Part shown: positions 5,917-41,344 of the stretch, in pieces | Layout of the letters: the number at the start of each line of letters is the position of its first letter | How positions within the stretch are numbered: position 1 is the first letter of the stretch | DNA from: Crocinitomicaceae bacterium | GTDB taxonomy: Bacteria; Bacteroidota; Bacteroidia; Flavobacteriales_D; Crocinitomicaceae | Assembly (NCBI GenBank): GCA_029238665.1 | Contig: JAQWFQ010000024.1 | Location: 62,001-126,000 of the forward strand | Length of the DNA stretch: 64,000 bases | Reading direction: 5' to 3' | Position numbers and translations under genes: made by a program | Notes under the pieces: generated by a model | The model's database searches: none | Told to the model about the DNA's origin: nothing | The model's input: the letters and a program-made list of their open reading frames with translations, nothing else

Positions 5917-6885
5917 TTAAGGTAAGTTTTCTATTACTTGATCTAGATTAGTTGATGTCGTAGTTGTCATCGGAATAGAGTATGTTATTCCAGCTTGAGG
6001 TGTAACATCTAACAGCCCGTAATAAAGTTGACCATTAACAACTGAAATTACAACAAGGTTTAAAGGGATACTTCCTAAGTGAGTTTCGTAAATTAAATTA
6101 TTAGAAATACTTCCCCAAGAAGAAACTCCTGTAGGCCATACAGAATTCTGTCCTTGAAAAACAGCAAATGCAGTTGTATTAGAAGCATCTAGACCTGTCA
6201 CCCCAGTAAGGTTGAAGTTACAATCAATATAAACTATACTCCAATCAAATGCGTCAATATTACCCCAACCTAAAGAATCTAGACTTAATTCATACGTTTC
6301 ATCAATAGAATTAAAGGTAAATGAAGATTCAGCCAAAGAATCATCCGGTTGAAGAATCCAGTTTATCGAATCAGTATCTTCATCTGGACCCGCAAAGAAT
6401 AATTCCATTTGATTATCTATCGCTTGAGCTGGAATATCCACCCCTATAAATACTCCATCTGAAATGCCTAGTGTGCTTCCATTTTGCCTTGCTTCAATAA
6501 AGAACTCTCCGCCAGAGTTTAATATGTTAGAATTACTTCTTGGAAAAATACCTGAATATATAATATCATTTGTTGAGAATATCTCTTTTAACTTAACAAT
6601 TATAGCACCTGTCACTAACTGCCCCCCCATAGTAATGAACGAATTTGCCGGAATTGTAACAGTAGAGCCTTTATTTGTTGTGAATTGTCCTCCATTTTCA
6701 GCTACTAGCGTAAAAACTTCTGAGCTCACCTCTTTTGAAGAGAAAAAATCAGCTATTGAATTAAATACTTCAGGTTGTACTACAGGAAGATCTATTTGTG
6801 ATTCAATTTTTTTCTTTTTACAAGAGCTAAAACTTAAACATAGCATAAGGGTAAGCGCTCCAAATTTAAACAGTGTCTTTTTCAT
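5917..6885 (-). CDS. Putative lipoprotein of unknown function
   Basis: A 322-residue protein with a lipoprotein signal: hydrophobic stretch then LSFSSC with the lipidated Cys near residue 22, followed by a run of lysines. Residues about 60-150 contain GGQFTTNKGSTVTIPANSF, a GxLVTGAI segment and NSGGEFFIEA. This pattern recurs in many Bacteroidota surface proteins as a beta-rich module, but I know no function for it. The rest is beta-rich without recognisable catalytic motifs. Flanking genes are housekeeping and suggest no role. Confidence 0.7.
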   Translation of the reverse strand: MKKTLFKFGALTLMLCLSFSSCKKKKIESQIDLPVVQPEVFNSIADFFSSKEVSSEVFTLVAENGGQFTTNKGSTVTIPANSFITMGGQLVTGAIIVKLKEIFSTNDIIYSGIFPRSNSNILNSGGEFFIEARQNGSTLGISDGVFIGVDIPAQAIDNQMELFFAGPDEDTDSINWILQPDDSLAESSFTFNSIDETYELSLDSLGWGNIDAFDWSIVYIDCNFNLTGVTGLDASNTTAFAVFQGQNSVWPTGVSSWGSISNNLIYETHLGSIPLNLVVISVVNGQLYYGLLDVTPQAGITYSIPMTTTTSTNLDQVIENLP

Positions 6886-6959
6886 ACAAATAGTTTTACG
6901 TGTATAATTCAGACGAATAATTTAAGCAAAAGGTTGCGTAAAAACGTACTATCTAAGAA

Positions 6960-8021
6960 CTATAGTTGAGTTGATTTATTTCTCAAATAAAAATCCAACA
7001 CCGTAATTGCAGCCATTGCCTCAACAACGGGAACTGCTCTAGGAACAACGCATGGATCATGTCGACCTTTACCCGCAAGCTTTATTAAATCTCCTTTATC
7101 GTTAATTGAATCTTGTTCCTTAAGAATTGTTGCTACAGGTTTAAATGCAATACGCATTGTTACAGGCATTCCATTTGAAATACCTCCTTGAATACCTCCT
7201 GAATGGTTGGTTTGTGTACTTCCGTCAGGATTAAAAATATCATTATGCTCAGAACCACGCATTTCAATAGCATCAAATCCTGAACCATATTCAAATCCTT
7301 TAACTGCGTTAATTGAGAGCATTGCCCTACCCAATTCAGCATGAAGTTTGTTAAAAACAGGTTCTCCCAATCCTGGAGGTAGGTGGTTAATTTCACACTT
7401 CACACTCCCCCCAACCGTATCTCCTGATTTCTTGATTTCTTTTATCAACGTTTCCATTTCACGAGCAACAGCTACATTTGGGCAACGAACAGGATTGTTG
7501 TCAATCTCATTATAATCGATCTCTCCGATCAATTTAACACCTCCTACTTGATCTACATAGGCAACTATATCGATACCAAGGTTATTTAAAACTTGTTTTG
7601 CAATTGCGCCAGCAACTACCCAAGATGCTGTTTCTCTAGCAGAAGATCTCCCCCCTCCTCTATAATCACGATTTCCATATTTTTTGTCATATGTGAAATC
7701 TGCATGTGAAGGGCGGTATGAATTTTTAATGTGGTTATAATCTTTCGATTTTTGGTCTTCATTCTTAATTACGAACCCAATAGGAGCCCCTGTTGTTTTC
7801 CCTTCAAAAACACCTGATAAAAGTTGAATTGAATCGGACTCTTTACGCTGAGTAACAATCGCTGACTGCCCTGGCTTCCTACGGTCTAGTTCATATTGAA
7901 CTTCATCAACATTCAACAAAACATTAGCAGGAACACCTTCAATAATTCCACCAATAGCAGGACCGTGAGATTCACCAAACGTACTCAATTTAAAAATTGT
8001 TCCTATTGATGACCCCGCCAT
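6960..8021 (-). CDS. aroC: Chorismate synthase
   Basis: Catalyses the last shikimate-pathway step, converting 5-enolpyruvylshikimate 3-phosphate to chorismate with reduced FMN. The 353-residue length is normal. Family motifs are [12 protein letters not shown] (about 14-25), [20 protein letters not shown] and a C-terminal [18 protein letters not shown]. An upstream in-frame ATG at 8096 exists, but it would add 25 residues inside the preceding phosphomutase gene; the ATG at 8021 gives the family-typical start [20 protein letters not shown]. It sits 4 nt after the phosphomutase stop codon, so translation is probably coupled. Confidence 0.96.
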
Positions 8022-29550: not shown

Positions 29551-32490
29551 CTATTTAGCATACATCATATACATAGAGTCAATATTGAATTGTTTTATTC
29601 CCACGTATTTTTGAGTCAAGTAATTTAGCGAAGAACCTTTCTCTAGCAAGTGTAATTGCTTCGAGTTATTGCGTTTAATAGTAGTCACAATAATTTTAGC
29701 CGGACCATATTCAGGCTTCTTTTTATACGCTGAAAAAGCATACTCACTGTTATCAATACGTAAATCTGTTACAGTTACTTCAGATAAATCTTTTGAAGCT
29801 ATAGCTATATAAGCACCATCTATATGACACCCATCAATAATCAGAGTAGAATGTTCACCTCCTGAAATACCTTTATCTCCAGCATCAAAAACTACACAGT
29901 CAACAACCTCAATTTGACTGCCCGAAAAATCCATGCAGTCATTCCCTGTATTACTAAACGTACAACCTATCACCTTTCCTGTACAGAAGTCGGCATCAAA
30001 CCCATCCGAGGTTGTTTCACTCACTGAACAATTCTTCATTGTAAAATCACATTGAATAAGGTTTAAACCATCCTCACTATGATTTTTCTCAAAATGACAA
30101 TCATCTAACGTTAACTTAGACTTAAAGAGTGTTACTGCTCCTGTTAATGAATGCATGTTTTTGGTAAGTGACTTCAAACCTTCAAACCGAGTAAACGTCA
30201 TACTTGACGATGTGTTTGGAGCACTTATGGTTATCCCATTGGCTGAAGAGTCCGATGAATAAATATGAATTTGATCCGTTTTAACCCCATCAAAGCTTAC
30301 TGGAGAATATGAAATAATTGCCGCATTATTCTTAATGTTTAACGCAACCCCTTGTTCAATAATAAAACGAAACCCCTTAGGAATAATCATATCATTAGAT
30401 AAAGAATAACTCCCTGATTTAATCAAGAAATCTCCCGTTGAATTTCGGGTTACAAATGATGGGATCTGCTCCTGGACAAATCGAATATCTTTAGGGGCAT
30501 CCCATTTATTTACACGTGCACTGAAAATTTTATCACCACAATTAGCAGCAGTATAAAATACTTTTTTGATCTTTTGATTAAACGTGATCATCTCCTCTGT
30601 GTAAGTGTTCGAATAGCGATCTAGAGCTAAATTAGAGCATTCAATTAGTGAATCTTTGTTTGCCTTAATTGAATAACCAATTATATTAATTTTATTCCTG
30701 TGGTAATTTCGCAAACGAACCTCCATTGATTCCTGACTCTTCTTAACTACATACGCTTTTAACGCTATTTCGGTGTATAAAAACTCTTCTGTCAACGGTT
30801 TATATATATAATCTTCAGACTCAGAAATAAGCTTGTTTTTTAACGTTTCATATTCTTTTAATTGCCCCTGAATAGCCATGCAGTTTCGTTCAAAGTACGC
30901 CCTATCCAGAGAAACAGAAGGGTTCTCAAAATTTAACAATTGCTCTTGCTTCGATATTTCAGCATTCATCTCATGGAAAACCGACTTCAGATAAGATGTA
31001 TTACTGTACTGCTTCAAATACTTTATATATAAAGCTTCTAGCTCTGAATTTTCCAATGCAGACTGAACCAAGCTCCCCCTTTCTTTTCCTACACGACCCA
31101 ACCCCTCTATACGAACCTTATACTCCAACAACTCTCGCTCTGTAAAACAATCGTATGCTATAGGTTCCAACTTATTGGTTAAAGGGTTGAAATAAAACCG
31201 TTGATTATGCCATATCAAGCCATGCTTTCCATTTACAACATCGCTCAAAGCTATATATTTAGCATAGGAATCTAAATCCATGTACTCACCTAACTTATCA
31301 TCACCGTATCTGTACCTGTTCATTTGACTTTGGGCAACCTTAAATAAATTGGATAGAACAATTGATTTATACGTTCTCTTTTTCTTAAACACAGAAATAT
31401 CAGACGAAAAAAGAATTGGAGCTCCATAACTAGCACTATCATCAATCTCGTATTTGTGATGCTCCCAAACGCCACTTTCATCAAACTTAACGATTGGTGA
31501 CTCTCTCCTGTGTCTTGATTCAAGCAATTGTTTATCAAAGTGTTCCTCTAACGCATAAACTCCTTTTCTTACTCCATTTATAATCACTGGAACAAATACA
31601 TACCTAGTCGTCAGAACATCCTCTCTATCAAACAGCTTATGTGCAAACCACTCATTCATAAATCCTCTTGTAGATGGATTCTGAATAGAAAACGTCTTTA
31701 ATCCTTTGTATGCATGATCACCTTTGACTTTAATTCTAAAAGACCATTTATCGGTTTCTAAATGGTCAGTCCAATCACCCTTTAAGCGTAATTCAACAGG
31801 GATTTCCTCACCATCAATAACAATCGAAGCCTTCACATATTCTTTTTGAGCTTTCATAATAATCCCTTGGCTCAATGCCTCTTCACGAAAAGATGTAATT
31901 TTATTCAAAACACATTCATCGAACTTAAGCTCAAGTGCTTCATGAGAAATATCAGGGGCCGTGTTATTTGAATAATACTTAACAGTTACATCATCAAAGT
32001 AGACAGCCTCCTTATTGGGATTATGCGCATACAACTTTAACATTTCAGAATCTTCTTCTGCTAAAAAATAAGCCTCAACAAACCCCCAGTCTCCCTCATA
32101 ATATTGCACACGATTTGTTGAAACATACTTTCCGCCTTTTGACGGATCCCGAATAATTAAATGTCCAAAACCTTCTTCTGAATGCCTCCAGGCAGAAAAT
32201 AGAATAACATCGCCTTTTTTTATGTTACTAAAGGTGTGAGTAATACCAAACTCTTGATTTTCATTTAACAACGATGCATACGTTCCACTTCTTGCATGTT
32301 CTGATGTTTGATAAGCTGCGCCCGCTAACTTATAATCTTCTGCTATAAAGTCCTCACCGCTAACACTTTCTAAATCTGACGTAAAAATTAACACACCATT
32401 GTTTTCATTTGTATTACTCAGGTAAAAAAAATAACCTATTACCCCCGTAATAAATAAAAACAGAACAAAGAACTTCACGCGAATATTCAT
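29551..32490 (-). CDS. Membrane-anchored CotH-like kinase with beta-helix domain
   Basis: A 979-residue protein with an N-terminal membrane anchor (about 7-24). Residues about 30-175 look like a carbohydrate-binding beta-sandwich. Then comes a CotH-like region (about 186-450): PVELRLKGDWTDHL, NGVRKGVYALEEHFDK and LEPIAYDCFTE. CotH proteins are atypical kinases that phosphorylate surface proteins. After a charged helical segment, about 690-940 form a right-handed parallel beta-helix with short repeating turns (CHFEKNHSEDGLNLIQC, CTFSNTGNDCMDFSGS). No T9SS tail is seen. It is divergent from the GT39-like gene at 32566. Substrate and activity are unknown. Confidence 0.75.
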   Translation of the reverse strand: MNIRVKFFVLFLFITGVIGYFFYLSNTNENNGVLIFTSDLESVSGEDFIAEDYKLAGAAYQTSEHARSGTYASLLNENQEFGITHTFSNIKKGDVILFSAWRHSEEGFGHLIIRDPSKGGKYVSTNRVQYYEGDWGFVEAYFLAEEDSEMLKLYAHNPNKEAVYFDDVTVKYYSNNTAPDISHEALELKFDECVLNKITSFREEALSQGIIMKAQKEYVKASIVIDGEEIPVELRLKGDWTDHLETDKWSFRIKVKGDHAYKGLKTFSIQNPSTRGFMNEWFAHKLFDREDVLTTRYVFVPVIINGVRKGVYALEEHFDKQLLESRHRRESPIVKFDESGVWEHHKYEIDDSASYGAPILFSSDISVFKKKRTYKSIVLSNLFKVAQSQMNRYRYGDDKLGEYMDLDSYAKYIALSDVVNGKHGLIWHNQRFYFNPLTNKLEPIAYDCFTERELLEYKVRIEGLGRVGKERGSLVQSALENSELEALYIKYLKQYSNTSYLKSVFHEMNAEISKQEQLLNFENPSVSLDRAYFERNCMAIQGQLKEYETLKNKLISESEDYIYKPLTEEFLYTEIALKAYVVKKSQESMEVRLRNYHRNKINIIGYSIKANKDSLIECSNLALDRYSNTYTEEMITFNQKIKKVFYTAANCGDKIFSARVNKWDAPKDIRFVQEQIPSFVTRNSTGDFLIKSGSYSLSNDMIIPKGFRFIIEQGVALNIKNNAAIISYSPVSFDGVKTDQIHIYSSDSSANGITISAPNTSSSMTFTRFEGLKSLTKNMHSLTGAVTLFKSKLTLDDCHFEKNHSEDGLNLIQCDFTMKNCSVSETTSDGFDADFCTGKVIGCTFSNTGNDCMDFSGSQIEVVDCVVFDAGDKGISGGEHSTLIIDGCHIDGAYIAIASKDLSEVTVTDLRIDNSEYAFSAYKKKPEYGPAKIIVTTIKRNNSKQLHLLEKGSSLNYLTQKYVGIKQFNIDSMYMMYAK

Positions 32491-37664: not shown

Positions 37665-40600
37665 CTATTGCTTTATAAACTCTTCGGTATAAACACGCTC
37701 ATGCGTTACTATTCTAATGGTATAATGTCCAGCCGGTGTGTCAGATAACTCAACCAATGTTGTTGCAAAATTAAGGTCTGTACTCATTGTTTGAGATTTT
37801 ATTTTTCGCCCCATCAAATCAAATACTTCTAACTGTGCCTCACCGCCTATATTCCCACTTAACTCAACGTGAAACACACCATTATTAGGGTTTGGAAAAA
37901 CAGTTATTTGATGGCTTAGGTCTTGTTCATCAATACCTAAAGCATATCCAACAGAAAAGTTAAACTTACTGTAGTTTCCAAAATCACGATCCAAGGTCTT
38001 AATTATTGGACCACCAACATTTTTAATTCTAAACGTCCCATTTGTTTCACCTTCTGTTTGTGCTGAATACCAGAACCCAATACCATCACTATCTGTATCT
38101 TCTAGTGTAATGCTATAGCAACCTGGAGCTAAATCAAATGTATCTTTATACGTTGTCGTATTCGTTAAGGTATTTCTCTGAAATAGAATGTTTCCATCCC
38201 CATCTTCTAACCTCCAATTATTCTCGTTTGCCTTGTTGTTTGTAGTAAACCAAACCAGGAATTGTCCCGAAATATAATTCGGAGCCTCAAAGTTTACCGA
38301 AACACCATCATTATGAGGATATTCATCCATGTCTGGAACACCTTGAACATTCATAACATGTGCTTTAAATGTTTGTTGTCCAGAATAATCAGCCCACCAA
38401 CTATCATCTGTAATTGGAATTTCTACAATTTCCTTTTCTAAAAACTTCAAGTTTCCAGTCCATTCGTAATCGATAAAATCTCCATAACTAATCCAAATTC
38501 GAATTCTACATGAAGTCAAATCTTGCTCTCCTGTATTCTGTAAAATCACCCTAGGGTTTGAACAACTTGGATTCCACTTACTGTAATACTCCCAATTGTT
38601 TGGGTTTAAAACATCTATAAGCGCTGCATCATGTTGAAAGTTTGGCGCTGAATAAGAAATTAAATCCATTGCAACGACATAATTTCCATTACCTTGCTCT
38701 TGATCACCTGCAGGAACATCCTCGATATCATAATCAAATATAACCGTTGCACCAGGGGTCACATAAGGTGTTAATTCATGGTCGTATTCTTTAACCAAAT
38801 CACCTGGACACCACCCTTCTCTTGCATAAGGCCATGTTCCACCTTGAGATATATTTGGATTGTCTCCACAAGCTGTTTCTTCCCAGATTTCCCAATTAAA
38901 ACGTTCTACACCATCAATTGAAATCATATGGTCTTTAGAGTCCCACTCACAACAGTTAACCGAACCATTGTGCCCATGACCTGTAAAACGTGTTTTAATC
39001 CGGTATGTTTCAGAAGAGTCCGAAAGTACAATACTCGTTGACTGAAGGTTCACATCGTTATCCATATTTGCATATGAGTAACTTCTAAAATCAGACCAAA
39101 TTGGCTGGCGCGAAAGAACATCACGTGGGGGAATCCCCTCAATGAAAGCAAATTTTAAATCGATCAACTCTTGCGTGTTATGTGCAGCTAAATCAACAAC
39201 ATCTTTCAAATACATTTGATAATCCGTAACATCGTAAACCCATGTAAACCCATTTGGTCCCAAATCAAATTGAATTCCATAAGGTGTAATAAAACGACCT
39301 ATTTCTACATCATTAATAATTTCAAAAGGTTCTTCATAGAGTGTAACTATTTCATTTGAAATTGTATTCACCCCTGTAAATGGGGTTGTTGCAATAATTG
39401 TATTCACCGCATCGTAAACAACTTCATCGCCACTTGGCAAAGCAACAAAAGCATTGACAATAGCAAAATGCCTGTCTACAACTTCATACTCAAAGACAAC
39501 CTCAGGCTCCTTCAGTTTTAAATATGGAATAATCTTATCCGTAACCACCCCTGAAACAGTACCCTGACCAAAACTAATTATTGGTCGGTCAGCTTCAAGA
39601 ACTCCCGCTAAAGGCATTGAAGAAAAATCAAACATTCCTTGTTCAGAGGGCATTAACAAGTAATCATTTTGGGACATATCCTTTGCCCACTCCTCATTGT
39701 CAAAATCGTAATAAACGGATAAGTCAGCCCAATTAGGATGCGTATTATCTATTTTGTTTTTGTACCAACTGGCAATTGTAGCATCATCAACAGCAGCCGT
39801 ATAAATTTGGAATTCATCAATACTCCCACTCCAATTATTTGATGCACTCTTGTTTGCTCCTAGAATTAATCTATGCATCATTCCCACTGAACGGGTATGG
39901 CCAACACCATCTAGCCAAAGAACACCATCTCTAAGTATCTTCATTTCACCTGTCCCTTGATTTTTCACAAAGGCCCAGTGGTGCCATTCATTATCAATTT
40001 CACCTGCTGTCATTGGGCCATAAATTCGGTCATTCCCAGCCCCTTCACCACAATCCCAATATAAATTGTTGTTGCTCCACGGCATGTGAATATTAATCAT
40101 TCGGGTATTTGTTGTATCCACTCCTTCTAAAATAGAAGTATTAACTCCATTATTACCGCTCCCCTTTGCCCAAAAGGCAATTGTTATATCGTCTCCCATA
40201 TCCACATCAGATAATTCTAACAAAGCATAGTTTGACCCTGATAAATTAAGGACACCATTTTTTGCTGTAAAATTCAACGCCATGTTTGGTGAAGATGTTT
40301 CCTTTTGAAAGGAAAGTGCATTTACTGCAGATGTGGTACGTTCAAAATTAAAATCAACAATGATGTTATCTGATCCGTTCCACCCAAAAGGTTGGTAAAA
40401 TTCCAATTCGTTTTCACCAATTGCTAATTCAGAAGTCGCAGCTAATGTAGAGCGTGACAAATTATACACTTCAGTAAAACCTGCTTCATGAAACGCAGTG
40501 ATGGTAGCATCTGTTGTTCCTTTAATTGAAATTGAAGGATATAACAACTCCCCATCTACAGTGATCCCATCTACATACAATGCCAATGACTGAATATCAC

Positions 40601-41135
40601 CTGCAACAATACCTGAATTCGTTAATTCTGCAGCTGTAACTAGCATCTGAAAGCGCCCTCCTTTATTTGACAAATCAAAAGGTGCATTAGACGCTCCTGA
40701 AGAAGTTTGATTCAATGAATTCAACGCGGTACTAAAACCACTTCTAAATTGCTCCGTTACAAGATATGTATCAGCATAACTATACCCCCAATCATCGTAA
40801 ACATAATCAGTAAAACTATTTAGATTATTCATGTAACGTACGGAGTCAATCTGTACTGAATCCATTACACCTGTATGATCAAATATTCTTGTATAAGCCA
40901 AATAATCCCACTCACCACAGGCATAACTATCCCAAGGGGTTTGAGCATCACACTTAAGCTTATAATACATCAACACTTTTTCAAAACGTTTATCCTCTAA
41001 CTCTGCAGGAAAAGTAAACTCAGCCCTTCGTGTTGATATAGAATCGAACGTAAATGTTTGAACCCAAGTAGTATCTTGAGAGAATGAAAAAGCACCCATT
41101 GCAACAAAGAGCGTCGTTAATAATCTTATTTTCAT
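37665..41135 (-). CDS. T9SS type A protein with PNGase F-like and LamG domains
   Basis: A 1156-residue exported protein starting MKIRLLTTLFVAMGAFSFSQ (signal peptide about 1-19). N-terminal region: VLMYYKLKCDA and CGEWDYLAYTRIFDHTG. A LamG/concanavalin-like domain follows (about 280-465; IDNEWHHWAFVKN, GSIDEFQIYTAAVDDA). The region about 530-880 resembles the second domain of peptide-N-glycosidase F: TGHGHNGSVNCCEWDSKDH and GGTWPYAREGWCPGD. C-terminus (about 1075-1156): VFPNPNNGVFHVELSG, type A sorting domain. PNGase F removes N-glycans; whether this homologue does is unknown. An upstream ATG at 41165 would add a non-signal extension and overlaps the promoter. A complete promoter is seen at 41155-41186. 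Confidence 0.8.
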   Translation of the reverse strand: MKIRLLTTLFVAMGAFSFSQDTTWVQTFTFDSISTRRAEFTFPAELEDKRFEKVLMYYKLKCDAQTPWDSYACGEWDYLAYTRIFDHTGVMDSVQIDSVRYMNNLNSFTDYVYDDWGYSYADTYLVTEQFRSGFSTALNSLNQTSSGASNAPFDLSNKGGRFQMLVTAAELTNSGIVAGDIQSLALYVDGITVDGELLYPSISIKGTTDATITAFHEAGFTEVYNLSRSTLAATSELAIGENELEFYQPFGWNGSDNIIVDFNFERTTSAVNALSFQKETSSPNMALNFTAKNGVLNLSGSNYALLELSDVDMGDDITIAFWAKGSGNNGVNTSILEGVDTTNTRMINIHMPWSNNNLYWDCGEGAGNDRIYGPMTAGEIDNEWHHWAFVKNQGTGEMKILRDGVLWLDGVGHTRSVGMMHRLILGANKSASNNWSGSIDEFQIYTAAVDDATIASWYKNKIDNTHPNWADLSVYYDFDNEEWAKDMSQNDYLLMPSEQGMFDFSSMPLAGVLEADRPIISFGQGTVSGVVTDKIIPYLKLKEPEVVFEYEVVDRHFAIVNAFVALPSGDEVVYDAVNTIIATTPFTGVNTISNEIVTLYEEPFEIINDVEIGRFITPYGIQFDLGPNGFTWVYDVTDYQMYLKDVVDLAAHNTQELIDLKFAFIEGIPPRDVLSRQPIWSDFRSYSYANMDNDVNLQSTSIVLSDSSETYRIKTRFTGHGHNGSVNCCEWDSKDHMISIDGVERFNWEIWEETACGDNPNISQGGTWPYAREGWCPGDLVKEYDHELTPYVTPGATVIFDYDIEDVPAGDQEQGNGNYVVAMDLISYSAPNFQHDAALIDVLNPNNWEYYSKWNPSCSNPRVILQNTGEQDLTSCRIRIWISYGDFIDYEWTGNLKFLEKEIVEIPITDDSWWADYSGQQTFKAHVMNVQGVPDMDEYPHNDGVSVNFEAPNYISGQFLVWFTTNNKANENNWRLEDGDGNILFQRNTLTNTTTYKDTFDLAPGCYSITLEDTDSDGIGFWYSAQTEGETNGTFRIKNVGGPIIKTLDRDFGNYSKFNFSVGYALGIDEQDLSHQITVFPNPNNGVFHVELSGNIGGEAQLEVFDLMGRKIKSQTMSTDLNFATTLVELSDTPAGHYTIRIVTHERVYTEEFIKQ

Positions 41136-41154
41136 AATAAATAATTTTGGTACA

Positions 41155-41186
41155 CGAATATACATTGCATTTTTTGATGAAACAAA
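41155..41186 (-). promoter_or_regulatory. Promoter of the PNGase-like gene
   Basis: On the minus strand TTTG (41183-41186) is followed by 20 nt and TATATTCG (41155-41162), a near-perfect match to the Bacteroidota consensus. It lies 19 nt upstream of the chosen ATG and argues against the upstream start at 41165. Confidence 0.55.
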
Positions 41187-41344
41187 CGTTCATAGGACTA
41201 TCAATGTAGGTTACTATAATACACCTCTTTAAATACAGTTAAGCTATCCTTATTTCGATTGATTAAAACAAAAAATAATTCAATTGAAAAGAGATGCTTT
41301 ATAAAAAATTCTATAAACCATATTTAAAATACTTAATTTTAAGC

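Follow-up and report, generated by a model that had tools for sequence, protein, structure and literature searches.

Can an enzyme fold be interrupted by a large lectin-like block and still be an enzyme? This question is raised by a gene in a 64,000-nucleotide stretch of the Crocinitomicaceae bacterium assembly GCA_029238665.1 (contig JAQWFQ010000024.1, positions 62,001 to 126,000), which is here called the window. The gene, 37665..41135 on the minus strand, encodes 1156 residues and was identified through Pfam, phmmer and its relatives as a member of the superfamily of PNGase F, a peptide:N-glycosidase (PNGase). It carries an insert with a LamG domain and the marks of export by the type IX secretion system (T9SS). 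It is a single open frame, the longest reading of which begins at 41165 (37665-41165). The start at 41135 yields a signal peptide and agrees with the starts of the relatives; residues are numbered from this Met. As will be seen, the protein probably is an active, exported PNGase, secreted or on the cell surface, with inserted lectin-like modules, which would be used on eukaryotic glycoproteins.

A predicted PNGase F fold in two pieces

That the protein belongs to the PNGase F superfamily, as the original prediction had proposed, is clear from several comparisons. N-glycanase_C (PF09113) matches with 46.7 bits (cut-off 25), and all 25 family members scanned match it at E 0.01 or better. Among 177,635 PDB sequences phmmer returned the PNGase F chains 1pnf, 1pgs and 3pms first (E 7e-12 to 3e-11, best 7.4e-12). 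A profile built from the 25 family members found 1pnf at 2.5e-24, and hhalign against groups of PNGases reached E 2.5e-23, with a local alignment spanning the part after the insert. The model of the N-terminal half, PF09112, has no match in the window protein and one among the 25 members (E 0.0078); this half is the one split by the insert. The 25-member profile also pairs CGEWDY with CDEWDR of 1pnf, in a segment of its own with a weak score (5.9 bits).

The first jelly roll comes in two pieces. Its first half, residues 21-96 (40848..41075, minus strand as all features below), was delimited by alignments and by model strands at 37-41, 51-60 and 79-92. Its second half, residues 605-672 (39120..39323), contains the sequence NTQE (653-656) and was recognised by hhalign, conservation and profile alignment. 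Jelly roll 2, residues 673-831 (38643..39119), harbours PF09113 and emerges from Pfam, phmmer and VIA-align, the latter being a second look at Foldseek matches.

The AlphaFold model of the protein (predicted local distance difference test, pLDDT, 80.8; predicted template modelling score, pTM, 0.49) was superimposed on 1pgs over residues 20-831, i.e., across the insert, with Z 21.1, 272 of 311 residues and a root-mean-square deviation of 3.5. Since the superposition spans this entire range, the two pieces meet around the insert in the predicted model. In Foldseek, PNGase F ranked second (E 8.4e-9), behind a LamG-type match. The pair of jelly rolls that the original prediction had wanted to see in a superposition is thus present in the predicted models: judged by overall superposition they lie side by side, in the window protein as well as in its insert-less homologue L030 (see below).

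The insert

The LamG domain had been expected between the two jelly rolls. Its presence was verified by Laminin_G_3 (56.9 bits, cut-off 27.6); its supposed place is ruled out, because EIGRFITPY...DVTDY (611-640), a part of jelly roll 1 of PNGase F, comes after the LamG domain. The interruption therefore lies inside jelly roll 1. Nor does it measure about 180 residues: it comprises 508, residues 97-604 (39324..40847), in the hairpin between the strand of the catalytic Asp and the EIGRFITPY strand, as defined by the in-frame absence in L030 and by spacing.

The extra length is due to a second beta-sandwich and a bridge. Insert module 1, residues 100-282 (40290..40838), is a beta-sandwich by its predicted strands and has no Pfam match; its ten-residue pLDDT means are 86-95, apart from 73 in the first block. 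The LamG or concanavalin A-like domain follows at residues 286-480 (39696..40280; Pfam match 300-455) and is backed by Pfam and VIA-align. The bridge, residues 481-604 (39324..39695), is beta-rich in the model, poorly conserved and equally without a Pfam match. Compared with PAPP-A, 4dqa, pentraxins and the LG domains of laminin and neurexin, the LamG domain scores Z 15-22 (maximum 21.6), the best structural matches being PAPP-A, 4dqa and the pentraxins with Z of about 19-22. LamG was matched in 24 of the 25 scanned members, i.e., in all that bear the insert; the exception is L030. LamG domains generally have a role in binding.

How constant is this arrangement? A homologue scan of genome contigs yielded 42 loci, 37 of them at least 52% identical and mostly labelled Crocinitomicaceae or Flavobacteriales, the other five 30-33% identical and labelled Bacteroidales or Bacteroidetes. 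The distance that separates the catalytic Asp and the E of EIGRFITP, determined by motif search and measurable only where the motif is kept, is 524-540 in 38 of the 42 loci. The remainder are L030 and three loci cut at contig ends (L026, L034 and L038); these three were left out of the spacing counts, as was L001, the window itself. The size class of the insert holds down to relatives of about 30% identity. The spacing is 17 in PNGase F, 26 in L030 and 26-28 in several small classes, 50-55 in L075, L076, L082, L088 and L091, and 120-127 in L098, L099, L101 and L102. This pattern again places the insert within jelly roll 1, where it extends the hairpin that follows the strand of the catalytic Asp. 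Because it leaves the fold at the far end of the strand that starts with this Asp, the insert is expected to project like a tower and not to obstruct the active site.

Two oddities of the scan may be mentioned. The copies L011 and L029 (TMED16) are 99.7% identical and sit on two contigs of one metagenome-assembled genome (MAG), which means duplication or strain mixture. L018 lies on a contig binned as Polynucleobacter meluiroseus, a betaproteobacterium; its neighbours have the sizes seen at Crocinitomicaceae loci such as L012, and a binning error is most likely.

A homologue without the insert

L030 stems from Flavobacteriales UBA4466, isolate FRAM18_bin200 (6013-7971 of CAJJBE010000002.1). 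It encodes CGEWDYLAYTRIYDHTGEIDSNQDEVVNDIEIGRFITPYG: the whole insert is missing in frame, in a locus free of N. The protein is 80% identical to that of the window before the insert site and 85% after it, it keeps the catalytic residues, similar C-terminal modules and the T9SS tail, and its spacing is that of the small classes. In its model (pLDDT 73.0) strands 79-91 and 97-108 are adjacent with a short turn between them; it fits 1png with Z 21.9 (268 of 310) and finds 1pnf in Foldseek at 1.5e-16.

The copy in G120 is 100% identical and most likely the same assembly, so that the evidence for an insert-less form is one MAG. According to the tabulated data of the Fram Strait study (PMC8254474), the longest Illumina contig measured 0.668 Mb and PacBio assemblies reached up to 2.3 Mb. 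With 793,872 bases the contig of L030 exceeds the former, from which we infer a PacBio origin. G545 was considered as a second insert-less copy, as its match looked contiguous; its sequence, however, carries LamG, and the apparent start was the edge of a stretch reaching the contig end.

The ratio of nonsynonymous to synonymous substitution rates (dN/dS) between L030 and the window gene is about 0.09, a rough value because dS reaches about 1 or exceeds it, in part too far to be estimated. L030 thus seems to be under purifying selection. Its branch dN is 0.05-0.06 versus 0.03-0.04 for the window, and in the core tree its terminal branch measures 0.13 versus 0.045; some relaxation may have followed the loss of the insert. 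Taken together, in-frame absence and purifying selection make the insert look removable.

Catalytic and conserved residues

The residues were compared in an alignment of 24 sequences, i.e., the window protein, 18 near and five distant relatives. The original prediction had rested on CGEWDYL and a later motif, GGTWPYAREGWCPG; both are there, at residues 73-79 and 765-778, respectively. CGEWDY, residues 73-78 (40902..40919), is invariant in 24 of 24, and the profile alignment equates D77 with Asp60 of PNGase F. E730 (38946..38948), just as invariant, corresponds to Glu206 by hhalign and phmmer, which puts CCEW on CAEW. Two of the three catalytic acids that were to be inspected are thereby accounted for; Glu118 has no acid equivalent (see below). 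H720 (38976-38978) is aligned by hhalign with Trp191 of PNGase F, where other PNGases have His. The segment 756-776 (38808..38870) is bounded by C756 and C776 of ...GGTWPYAREGWC; these two are invariant and correspond in position to C231 and C252 of PNGase F. C62 and C73 stand at the positions of a disulfide of that enzyme.

Among the residues picked out, C62, C73, E75, W76, D77, Y78, N653, Q655, E656, H720, C728, E730, C756, W768, R772, W775 and C776 are invariant in all 24 sequences, and the site residues hold in relatives down to 29% identity. The motifs common to all are CGEWDY, a RFITPYG-type sequence, GH...C.E and QGGTW...WCPG. The part of PMC12381499 on substrate contacts describes an aromatic-D-aromatic/positive motif, a His and a Glu as broadly conserved in PNGases, PNGase F being exceptional in having Trp for the His. 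W76-D77-Y78, together with H720 and E730, fits this common pattern. In zebrafish Ngly2, mutating either counterpart of the catalytic Asp and Glu abolishes activity (PMC12753239).

Conservation and history

Identity to the window protein is distributed unevenly. In the five distant relatives the means are 54% and 66% for the halves of jelly roll 1, 35% and 32% for the C-terminal modules, 21% for insert module 1, 18% for the tail and 14% for the bridge. The 18 near relatives show 80% and 86% for the halves of jelly roll 1, 71% for jelly roll 2, 63% and 64% for the C-terminal modules, 62% for LamG, 48% for insert module 1, 45% for the tail and 48% for the bridge. By this measure jelly roll 1, with the catalytic Asp, appears as by far the best-conserved part. 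We read the pattern as that of an enzyme with drifting targeting modules and not of an adhesin, a contrast carried mostly by the conservation of jelly roll 1 and by the site residues that are invariant.

A tree was built from 52 chosen PNGase cores with the insert excluded; it contains 30 insert-bearing rows, hand-picked from the 39 whose insert is complete (the window and 38 loci). These 30 and L030 form one clade (99/97), which spans the Crocinitomicaceae and distant Bacteroidota, with L030 as sister to the window protein (99/81). The branch of the PNGase F row is very long, and no single branch separates the outgroup from the rest. The most economical history is a single gain of the insert followed by a single loss. 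An insert-less paralogue of 635 residues (L118:975-2882, G549:C269), a T9SS PNGase-like protein of the small class, comes from a genome in which the large form is present too. It appears from its sequence to carry similar C-terminal modules, which suggests that the cassette entered a PNGase that had such modules beforehand.

L048-L051 and L094-L096 make up a separate long-branch class of PNGase-like proteins of about 450-550 residues. They have CDNYDR in place of CGEWDY and possibly another specificity.

Export and C-terminal modules

That the protein is T9SS cargo had also been foreseen, and its sequence signals and the genome agree with this. The signal peptide, residues 1-20 (41076..41135), was read by eye and agrees with the N-termini of relatives. 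The type A sorting domain, residues 1079-1156 (37668..37901), is matched by PF18962 with 45.9 bits (cut-off 27) and by TIGR04183 with 46.6 bits. The same genome has SprA (2439 bits, above cut-off) and 79 sorting-tail matches, 72 of them above cut-off. The protein may thus be regarded as a likely T9SS substrate. Between the catalytic part and the sorting domain lie two beta-rich modules, residues 838-950 and 953-1065 (37941..38624), delimited by predicted strands and conservation.

Distribution and genomic setting

PF09113 is common in the family to which the window belongs: it was found in 101 of 150 genomes (85 of the 114 good ones), with 107 matches in total, compared with 61 of 395 genomes in a sample of the phylum. 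The large form, taken as a PF09113 match in a frame of 1080-1320 residues, i.e., by length and not by the presence of LamG in each genome, occurs in 78 of the 150. No match was seen in the phage collection. A weak match of 20.4 bits, below the cut-off, lies at G139:C4:150688-150915 within a frame of 4031 residues.

Of the 78 family genomes with the large form 68 have GH92, compared with 45 of the 72 others (Fisher p 6e-4, kinship not removed); in genus g7 it is missing from all eight genomes in which PF09113 is matched. The genome of the window has two GH92 genes, one of them adjoining a ROK kinase, and one GH20.

The next gene upstream in the window is trmD-like, as read from its sequence. 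Other homologues adjoin genes for an aldolase, an accD-like carboxyl transferase or a metallo-hydrolase. Upstream of the PNGase gene 11 of the 42 loci (L002, L004-L009, L021, L027, L030 and L038) have a gene for an M14-like carboxypeptidase with the motif HPGEPDG; between the two genes L038 has a reverse frame of 1074 residues and L008 a frame of 117. These M14-like proteins are 58-68% identical to that of L002, and Pfam calls M14 in one of three tested (28.4 bits). The gene is found in 10 of the 12 rows of the subclade of the window and missing in L003 and in the window itself (41166-41293). A decayed remnant in the window genome was considered and rejected: a 44-residue match with stops is best read as an over-long start that overlaps the trmD region, and blastp gave no match among the frames of the window. 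CotH-kinase domain proteins are encoded in the window at 29554-32490, there with a beta-helix, and beside a GH92 gene elsewhere in the genome (L105:11220-12383).

Proposed function and alternatives

How would such a protein work? In the reading that we favour, two beta-sandwich domains and a bridge, together forming a lectin-like insert, have come to interrupt jelly roll 1 at the hairpin behind the strand of the catalytic Asp, and the split chain would refold as a single PNGase double jelly roll, as the model, the alignments and the natural insert-less relative suggest. By analogy with PNGase F and Ngly2, D77 and E730 would cleave the GlcNAc-Asn bond where the two jelly rolls meet. Glycans or surfaces may be bound by the LamG and beta-sandwich modules, which would so keep the enzyme on its target. 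The freed N-glycan could then be trimmed by the GH92 alpha-mannosidases and the GH20 hexosaminidase of the same genome and the bared peptide be consumed. Likely targets would be N-glycoproteins of algae and other eukaryotes in marine and fresh water.

A number of observations weigh against this scheme. The TETW of PNGase F, with Glu118, is replaced by NTQE (653-656). The column of Glu118 holds no acid: hmmsearch puts T654 there (F in distant members) and hhalign a gap. The Trp or Tyr of this loop is not conserved either, E656 falling at Trp120 by hmmsearch. The change is not fatal as such: active group 2 PNGases have Gly at the place of Glu118 and another Glu taking over (PMC9522356), so that the missing acid is compatible with activity. 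In the window model pLDDT falls below 50 at 63-77, 726-732 and 752-779. These stretches frame the active site and contain D77 and E730 themselves, so that the two residues are assigned by sequence and the catalytic geometry is presumed; the model of L030 shows the same weak stretches. The Foldseek TM score of the window model to PNGase F is only 0.54 by target length, and in conservation jelly roll 2 has only a modest lead over LamG (35% versus 29% in the distant relatives). The genomic context also offers points against the scheme: 10 of the 78 large-form genomes have no GH92, the association ignores kinship, both GH92 genes of the window genome are on other contigs than the PNGase gene, no GH18 was found in that genome (E 0.001), none of the seven neighbour proteins scanned in the window is a glycosidase, and housekeeping genes stand beside homologues of the L012 type. 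For two of these reasons, the low-confidence stretch around E730 and the small lead of jelly roll 2 over LamG, our confidence in an active PNGase is slightly reduced; we still consider it probable.

Part of this evidence would suit a catalytically dead PNGase fold that has been kept as an adhesin, its double jelly roll and LamG merely binding glycans on algal or host surfaces. The replaced Glu118 and loop aromatic, the poor lead of jelly roll 2 and the lack of a neighbouring glycosidase all point that way, and LamG with several beta-sandwich modules is typical of binding proteins. A dead fold, however, would hardly be expected to keep D77, E730, W76, Y78, H720, C62/C73 and C756/C776 invariant down to 29% identity, with the halves of jelly roll 1 best conserved and the insert drifting, and the LamG-less L030 has retained the catalytic set at its low dN/dS. 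We therefore regard an adhesin as rather unlikely. The remodelling of the E118/W120 loop into an invariant N-x-Q-E turn could also mean that the protein is an active amidase or hydrolase for something other than eukaryotic N-glycans, e.g., a glycosylated amide of bacteria or archaea or a modified algal linkage. The gene is common, mostly with one match per genome, and some records are titled after lakes, groundwater or effluent, unlike the enzymes of polysaccharide utilisation loci in the gut. Yet all six superfamily enzymes assayed in PMC12381499 cleave some type of eukaryotic N-glycan despite varied loops, and the W-D-Y, His and Glu of the window protein match the substrate contacts described there; a different substrate is accordingly improbable. 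Finally, one might suspect that the split is an artefact, i.e., a misassembled fusion or unrelated neighbouring domains with chance motifs, considering the missing PF09112 match and the faint N-terminal segment against 1pnf. This idea is already contradicted by the constant spacing, by a model that unites both halves on one PNGase F and by L030, where the halves form an uninterrupted domain; it deserves practically no credence.

An active PNGase with a lectin-like insert may be taken one step further. Around T654 the residues N653, Q655 and E656 are invariant, and the window model has a short helix at 654-659. It is conceivable, if rather doubtful, that the lineage has a PNGase with a third kind of active site, in which the N-x-Q-E turn replaces the Glu118 loop, E656 takes over and the LamG tower steers the enzyme to algal and other aquatic glycoproteins. 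If so, N-glycan stripping would be a common trait of Crocinitomicaceae and L030 a ready-made control without the tower.

Whatever the details, a probable enzyme domain with a large lectin-like cassette inside one jelly roll has kept its catalytic residues, and a close natural homologue without the cassette makes the role of the inserted lectin directly testable. The protein points to a use of N-glycoproteins by mostly uncultured aquatic Bacteroidota. A PNGase with an unusual active-site loop might also become a tool for deglycosylation.

Relation to known PNGases

PNGase F of Elizabethkingia meningoseptica (1pnf, 1pgs, 3pms), the type I enzyme, shares with the window protein the double jelly roll (predicted in the latter), Asp60, Glu206 and Trp59, the cysteine positions and the motifs EIGRFITPY and WCPG. 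It differs by lacking the hairpin insert, the C-terminal modules and the T9SS tail. Conversely, the window protein has His for Trp191 and no conserved Glu118 or Trp120; with neither this Glu (Asp in Bacteroides group 1) nor the Trp, it would fall outside type I.

The group 2 enzymes, such as PNGF-II (4r4x) and that of B. massiliensis (7zgn), have the same catalytic Asp and Glu as the window protein, a His in the cyan loop and likewise no Glu118; most have an N-terminal bowl-like domain, and EMTypeII has a Glu elsewhere, E419 (PMC9522356), for which the window protein offers no Glu at the aligned position. Judging from the spacing, the compensating Glu of group 2 is probably the E of a MEM motif, which is missing in the window protein. 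The latter also has no domain before jelly roll 1 in its model and no Gly at the place of Glu118, and it thus stands outside group 2 as well.

Zebrafish Ngly2 (9lwg) has a PNGase F domain with the catalytic Asp and Glu and superimposes with Z 18.6 on the window model and 19.9 on the L030 model. It is a eukaryotic lysosomal enzyme with a protease-associated domain, and the domain scheme in PMC12753239 contains no LamG. L030 has the same catalytic residues as the window protein, similar C-terminal modules and a T9SS tail, but not the 508-residue insert.

Among the literature matches listed, with subscription journals mostly outside their scope, no PNGase interrupted by LamG is described. PNGaseL and PNGaseDo are T9SS-exported and likewise combine a catalytic module with beta-sheet accessory modules and a T9SS tail. 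There, however, the accessory modules are placed N- or C-terminal to the catalytic module, and the main text of PMC12381499 mentions no insertion within it. PNGases with accessory modules and T9SS tails are thus known from that work; what appears to be new in the window protein is the LamG-bearing block inside jelly roll 1.

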